From Elainella sp. Prado103 (GTDB taxonomy: Bacteria; Cyanobacteriota; Cyanobacteriia; Elainellales; Elainellaceae): 64,000 nucleotides of DNA. Position 1 is the first letter of the stretch. Every line of letters starts with the position of its first letter. Shown here piece after piece: positions 53,619-53,982 of the stretch. The notes beneath the pieces are model-generated. The model did not search any database. It was not told where the DNA came from and was given only the letters and a program-made list of their open reading frames with translations. The stretch spans positions 1 through 64,000 of the forward strand of contig JALOOM010000021.1 of assembly GCA_025454395.1 (NCBI GenBank), given 5' to 3'. Made by a program: the position numbers and the translations under genes.

Positions 53619-53810
53619 GGTTTCATGCTGATTGACTGACAAAACTCAAACTACCCACTGCTACGCAGAAGCAAGCTACACCCCAACCCTTCGCCCGCTC
53701 TGGGAGAGGGGCTTTCGAACCAGGATTTGATGGCAAGTCCCTTCGCCCCTAGTGGGAGAAGGGATTTAGGGATGAGGGGAAAAGATTTGTCAGTCAATCA
53801 GGGTTTCATG
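53619..53810. mobile_element. MITE with 16-bp perfect TIRs and 9-bp target duplication
   Basis: The element itself is 53628-53801 (174 bases). Its ends are perfect inverted repeats: CTGATTGACTGACAAA (53628-53643) and its exact complement TTTGTCAGTCAATCAG (53786-53801). Both sides are flanked by the identical 9 bases GGTTTCATG (53619-53627 and 53802-53810). The inside has a CCCTTCGCCCC/GGGAGAAGGG hairpin and no open frame. A 9-base duplication fits a transposase of the IS4-like kind, but no parent element is in this window. Confidence 0.9.
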
Positions 53811-53982
53811 TCAGGTTTCAGTGAGAGGCACACCAGGCTGGGGGGTTTGTTTCTGGGGTGCTCGTTTCTTCAGAGGGCTGCTTAACCGCAGGCGATCCTC
53901 GCTCTGGGTGAGAAATTTGCGATAAGATAAGAGTTAAGAAATGTAAACAATTCTCATCATTACACTCTCATTCCTAGCGCCT
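53811..53982. other. crtD promoter region
   Basis: Non-coding 172 bases after the MITE and before crtD. No tandem repeats. The likely promoter and ribosome site of crtD (sequence AGCGCCTATG region) lie here; boxes are not confidently assigned. Confidence 0.4.

Follow-up and report, generated by a model that had tools for sequence, protein, structure and literature searches.

The intergenic region between ureC and crtD in Elainella sp. Prado103 holds a short sequence with inverted ends, which raises the question of what moved it into place and where its hairpin-bearing interior comes from. The window, that is, the whole stretch of DNA analysed, comprises 64,000 nt of contig JALOOM010000021.1 (assembly GCA_025454395.1), part of a 5.84-Mb draft genome of 157 contigs. 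The explanation that we hold to be very probable as a whole is an IS10-type MITE, moved in trans, with a two-hairpin core shared with other MITEs. Specifically, a transposase of the IS10 subgroup of the IS4 family would act in trans on the CTGATTGACTGACAAA ends and move the non-autonomous MITE by cut-and-paste, with a staggered cut of 9-10 bp at intergenic sites beginning and ending in G or C. The interior would be a cyanobacterial palindromic two-hairpin module set within IS10-type ends, with no transposase remnant, and related modules elsewhere would sit within MITE ends unrelated to these. The MITE would recently have multiplied to about a hundred copies in this species.

Structure, copies and target sites of the element

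Direct reading of the sequence bore out the preliminary description of 16-bp perfect terminal inverted repeats, a 9-bp target duplication and a non-coding element of 174 bases (53628-53801), as well as its placement upstream of both ureC (minus strand) and crtD (plus strand). The element contains no transposase frame. Its 16-bp ends are exact complements; at 19 nt they are 95% complementary, with 136 nt between them. The parts of the locus are as follows:

53628..53801, plus strand: the MITE, 174 bp and multi-copy, with the AAAACTCAA end taken as left
53619..53627, no strand: left target-site duplication GGTTTCATG, by direct reading; its G/C-ended form and length class recur in other copies
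53628..53643, plus strand: left terminal inverted repeat CTGATTGACTGACAAA, by direct reading
53656..53678, plus strand: extra segment of ~20 bp around CTGCTACGCAGAAGCAAGCTA, carried by the 174-bp subfamily and lacking in the 153-156-bp form
53680..53777 (limits approximate), plus strand: core module of two hairpins within an outer stem, common to MITEs with other ends in other cyanobacteria
53686..53710 (motif at 53687-53715), plus strand: hairpin 1 (CCCTTCGCCC GCTCT GGGAGAGGGG), its loop flipped relative to most copies
53739..53763 (motif at 53739-53767), plus strand: hairpin 2 (CCCTTCGCCCCTAGTGGGAGAAGGG)
53786..53801, minus strand: right terminal inverted repeat, TTTGTCAGTCAATCAG on the plus strand and CTGATTGACTGACAAA on the minus strand
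53802..53810, no strand: right target-site duplication GGTTTCATG, by direct reading
53916..53951, plus strand: block upstream of crtD that is conserved in relatives, promoter-like by position only

The window element is one of many. At least 40 near full-length matches of 85-100% identity were found in the Prado103 genome, 40 of 146 candidates having been scored. With up to three mismatches allowed, 283 end-like sites were counted, as compared to 41 with a reversed control pattern, and a 33-bp right-end signature occurred 84 times versus zero in the control. Thus, the window element is not a product of chance, and the objection that it might be a single copy, raised in the preliminary description, falls away. 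The family comprises about 84 to 120 elements in this genome. Many contigs break within a copy, which explains part of the fragmentation of the draft assembly.

The copies fall into size classes: 174 bp with the ~20-bp segment, 153-156 bp without it, and internally deleted forms of 119-148 bp, of which those of 119-131 bp have lost neither an end nor the duplication. Several of the forms of 266-338 bp visibly hold another insertion. Of the 26 copies scored, 23 have hairpin 1 the other way round from the window copy; the flip is common to the window copy, L003 and L014, and is probably present in the nearest copy, L002, which shows two differences from that of the window. The flipped hairpin marks a MITE subfamily.

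A second MITE, of 154 bp with ends CTACCTTGTACACACAAG / CTACTGTGTACACACATCG, was observed nested in copies of the first (L295:167-320; also L277, L289 and L292). At L295 it is inserted into hairpin 1 and flanked by an 11-bp duplication, CCCGCTCTGGG. Its interior is likewise a hairpin pair but differs in sequence.

Among the copies read to both ends, 45 are flanked by target duplications of 9 or 10 bp that mismatch at one position at most; the underlying table had 46 rows, one of which was dropped as a locus-edge artefact. All 28 of the 9-bp duplications start with G or C, and 27 of them end with G or C. When the flanks of the copies were joined, no convincing interrupted gene was restored, so the insertions are essentially intergenic. 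At the crtD loci of 29 relatives, ureC does not lie alongside and gene order is not conserved; these loci yielded no empty ureC-crtD site.

The distribution of the right-end signature bears on the age of the family. Among 291 sampled genomes of the class, the signature occurs in 18 genomes of 16 genera, with at most 10 copies per genome outside Prado103, and it was not found in any of the four other sampled species of the genus. Because of this absence and these low counts, the MITE burst appears recent and, among the sampled genomes, is lineage-specific; loss in the other species is also possible. Near-identical copies, duplications at 45 sites and signature-free congeners all fit the recent transposition in trans that had been proposed from the window alone. 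Separately, in the complete 4.4-Mb genome G029, a first look gave 675 candidate places for this MITE type (e.g. L091-L097), and a profile search found no transposase of the IS10-type clade. Hundreds of candidate places in a genome from which the clade transposase is absent suggest an old, abandoned burst.

The two-hairpin core and its envelopes

The core consists of CCCTCACCC, hairpin 1, hairpin 2 and GGGATGAGGG, and spans ~95-105 bp. The preliminary description had likened the interior hairpin motif to a widespread cyanobacterial intergenic repeat and suggested that such repeats are in part mobile. This suggestion is supported and proved more general than first proposed: two or more further MITE families of other cyanobacteria, which have unrelated ends and duplications of 8-9 bp, contain the core. 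A 161-bp MITE of G030, bounded by GGCAACAATATACTT/GGCATTAATATACTT, has the core as its interior; 12 near full-length copies of this MITE are present, and each of the six sites read shows an AT-rich duplication of 8 bp. The envelope in G019 and G032 has GGGTGCATCCCACTTTTG-type ends, with duplications of 8-9 bp such as GGTTTAGTT at L341 and GTAGTCTT at L353, which were read by eye. Three core copies in G019 have GYGATGTGCAACTTT ends, next to which no clear duplication was seen. Many matches in G019 and G032 end at the core edges, and the core is also present in other cyanobacterial genomes without IS10-type or any recognisable ends. A search of plasmids returned only two short core-like matches, and one of viral contigs returned none.

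The single strand of the window element folds better than shuffled sequences (DNA fold z -5.65), owing to the inverted ends and the two GC-rich hairpins. The fold was further evaluated using 27 distinct cores, in which 97.8% of cells are paired in the two-hairpin fold. Two of the pairs are compensatory, both partners being changed (columns 14-39 and 68-94). Compensatory cells numbered 16, as compared to a mean of 5.4 for shuffled cores and 0-1 when the partner was slid, counts that are inflated by the kinship of the core sequences. RNAalifold prefers a single long hairpin; the two compensatory pairs are the reason for favouring the two-hairpin fold instead. Because the pattern used to collect the cores dictates their outer ends, the outer stem carries no independent weight, and its invariance is partly due to that pattern. 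These data favour palindromes that are maintained, for which selection on RNA, selection on DNA and mutational processes are alike possible. Hairpin flips such as that of the window copy indicate that the arms do rearrange.

Before the core is treated as one module, it must be asked whether GC-rich palindromes simply converged in separate MITE families. Runs of C and G favour chance similarity, and the search pattern itself fixes the outer ends of the cores. Nevertheless, scores between cores from different envelopes lie 10 to 18 SD above dinucleotide-preserving shuffles and exceed 300 of 300 shuffles, and most cores keep the same order of elements: outer arm, hairpin 1, CTTTGA-type spacer, hairpin 2, outer arm. 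Moreover, the element at L106 in G011, which has IS10-type ends and a 10-bp duplication, carries a core that is 90% identical to that of L341 in G019 despite the different ends. Convergence is therefore unlikely as the source of the resemblance.

The L106 core groups apart from the other IS10-type cores in a tree of 27 short sequences, and its likeness to a core from another envelope suggests exchange between MITEs. The simplest reading, for which a 27-sequence tree is a thin basis, is that cores and envelopes reassort, either by recombination between elements or by core insertion. We infer that capture or exchange, and not a single inheritance, brought the core into its several envelopes. A stronger version, in which the core is a hitchhiking cassette that has time and again moved into cyanobacterial MITEs of unrelated transposases, or passed from one to another, while keeping its fold, is a conjecture that we entertain seriously but would not yet bet on.

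As an observation apart from the core itself, the extra ~20-bp segment of the 174-bp form (GCTACGCAGAAGCAAGC) resembles GTAGCTTGCTTCCCGCAG, which adjoins cores in G030 (L262, L263). This segment is probably a nested small repeat and, as such, a third level of nesting.

IS elements with matching ends and the position of the insertion

The partner of the MITE was searched for among end-like sites that lack the MITE inner sequence, which led to L157, and then using an IS4-family model with inspection of the ends. L157, from a congener of Prado103, is a 1325-bp element with exact CTGATTGACTGACAAA ends and a frameshifted gene, the halves of which match the same IS4-family model and are collinear. 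Four elements found in relatives are intact: L183 (1323 bp, perfect CTGGTTGACTGACAAA ends, a 411-aa open frame and a 9-bp duplication), L181 (1287 bp, 10-bp duplication), L182 (1312 bp, 9-bp duplication) and L184 (1334 bp, 9-bp duplication). Thus, the IS with the same type of ends that the preliminary description had proposed to look for exists in relatives, as IS4-family elements with an intact transposase and the same duplication length.

All four encode an IS4-family transposase (NF033591), and their ends all begin with CTG. The Y-x2-R-x3-E motif is present in four of four transposases; the last position of the full signature, Y-(2)-R-(3)-E-(6)-K, holds K in three and Q in L183. Identity to the set's first member is 34-46%. 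The transposases score 132-135 bits, below the curated NCBIfam cut-off of 152 for NF033591, so they represent a divergent branch. By size, ends, duplications and signature, the partner elements fit the IS10 subgroup of the IS4 family. A search of solved structures returned no related transposase, and the inner part of the end sequence was not found in a literature search. Degraded IS copies were also present, three without a target duplication (L152, L157 and L187) and one that retained it (L226). G001, a genome of the same genus, has the most IS10-type transposase copies in the genus and yielded no MITE match; IS and MITE presence therefore do not track each other closely.

A profile built from the four transposases was searched against the Prado103 assembly. 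The only IS10-type copies in this draft are decayed, and no intact transposase of the subgroup was detected. C63 is a remnant with frameshifts. C50 (L237) retains the C-terminal part of the transposase, followed by an exact 16-bp end. This 3' end, CTGATTGACTGACAAAACTCAA, reproduces the opening 22 bases of the MITE exactly (to CTCAA). At its other end, CTGATTGACTGACAAATCTTTTC, the MITE is similar to the 3' terminus of L182, CTGACTGCCTGACAAATCTTTTC; with one end matching C50 and the other resembling L182, the two ends may derive from different IS lineages, although this is suggestive only. Presumably, either the source IS has degenerated or the draft lacks an intact copy of it.

One candidate partner in the same genome, the IS4-family element of C153, reached via PF01609, was rejected because it belongs to another group and has different ends. 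This 1396-bp element (L081:664-2059; NF033590 above cut-off) has similar GTGTACACACAAGT ends and sits within a remnant of the first MITE, with inverted flanks. It is a possible partner of the second, 154-bp MITE.

The MITE might instead have been moved by an unrelated IS with lookalike ends, or by an unassembled IS of another family. The lack of an intact IS10-subgroup transposase in the assembly is compatible with this, and repeats may be under-represented in a draft of 157 contigs, many of which end within MITE copies. However, where end-like sites are coupled to a transposase in the searched relatives, the enzyme is of the NF033591 clade, and the duplications match in several cases; the decayed C50 element shares its 22 terminal bases exactly with the MITE; and a search of the Prado103 genome for IS-type 5' ends gave one site, with no other IS there. 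Such a mover is accordingly quite improbable. It is the IS10-subgroup transposase family that, from the agreement of ends and duplications, would actually move the MITE.

The genes on either side were identified using NCBIfam models, with both scores above cut-off. The start of ureC (minus strand; urease alpha, TIGR01792) is ~186 bp from the element, and that of crtD (plus strand; TIGR02733) is ~172 bp from it. The insertion could thus be imagined to have been kept for its effect on the expression of either gene, as it lies within their divergent upstream region and forms stable hairpins. The copies are essentially all intergenic, so the position between ureC and crtD needs no special explanation. 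In addition, searches of the region for sigma-70-like promoters and Rfam families gave no match, and the insertion leaves the conserved crtD-upstream block, about 105-115 bp away, uninterrupted. Retention for this reason is very improbable; an effect on ureC or crtD expression as such is still possible.

Target duplications and conserved terminal ends are hallmarks of double-strand DDE transposition, and Y1 elements are not known to make target duplications. It is barely credible that the element is a REP/BIME-like palindromic repeat moved by a Y1 single-strand transposase, with duplications of another origin: the strong secondary structure (z -5.65), the two hairpins with two compensatory pairs and the end-less cores of other genomes would suit such a repeat, but duplications of 9-10 bp with fixed G/C ends at 45 sites, conserved 16-bp ends and deleted copies of 119-131 bp that retain both ends and the duplication would not.

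Comparison with known systems

The IS10-type MITE with a shared core may be compared to several described systems. The very small mobile repeats of cyanobacteria attributed to Elhai et al. 2008 are reportedly short and intergenic and nest within one another. Going by that description, the ~20-bp insert looks similar in kind; the present core differs in being enclosed by DDE-type ends with target duplications. REP/REPIN sequences with their RAYT are palindromic intergenic repeats of high copy number (PMC3116915, PMC3733652), a likeness that stops at the long terminal inverted repeats and 9-10 bp target duplications of the window MITE. The duplication-free, single-strand hairpin ends of RAYT-moved REPs are not what the window MITE displays.

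Members of the IS10 subgroup of the IS4 family are 1200-1350 bp long and have CT ends, 9-bp repeats and a YREK signature (De Palmenaer et al. 2008, PMC2266710). The partner elements resemble them in size (1287-1334 bp), in ends starting with CT, in duplications of about 9 bp and in a single open transposase frame. They differ in their end sequence, CTGRTTGACTGACAAA, in that a 10-bp duplication also occurs, and in transposases that score below the NCBIfam IS4-family cut-off. Anabaena sp. 90 contains 147 MITEs, mostly intergenic and with secondary structure, and also an IS10-subgroup IS, ISAsp10, of 1270 bp (PMC3542288). In that study, no IS of the genome was found to match the MITE ends, whereas the Prado103 MITE has a matching IS family. 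The Nezha MITE (Zhou et al. 2008, cited in PMC10969869 and PMC3733652) is also non-coding, bounded by terminal inverted repeats, multi-copy and cyanobacterial, and serves as a precedent only. Part of the novelty may already be described (Nezha; Elhai et al. 2008).

Overall, the element is a MITE of known kind for which the likely mobilising IS family is now identified. What is established is a pattern in sequences, from which transposition in trans and core exchange are deduced. A widespread class of intergenic palindromes in cyanobacteria thereby gains a concrete means of spreading: its transposase family can be named and its ends can be tested. That one core recurs between unrelated MITE ends suggests that interiors can be selected or exchanged independently of the ends. 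If the cassette proposal is true, part of the common palindromic repeats of cyanobacteria would be cargo passed between transposon envelopes. As compared to the systems above, it is the shared and apparently exchangeable core that sets this MITE apart.
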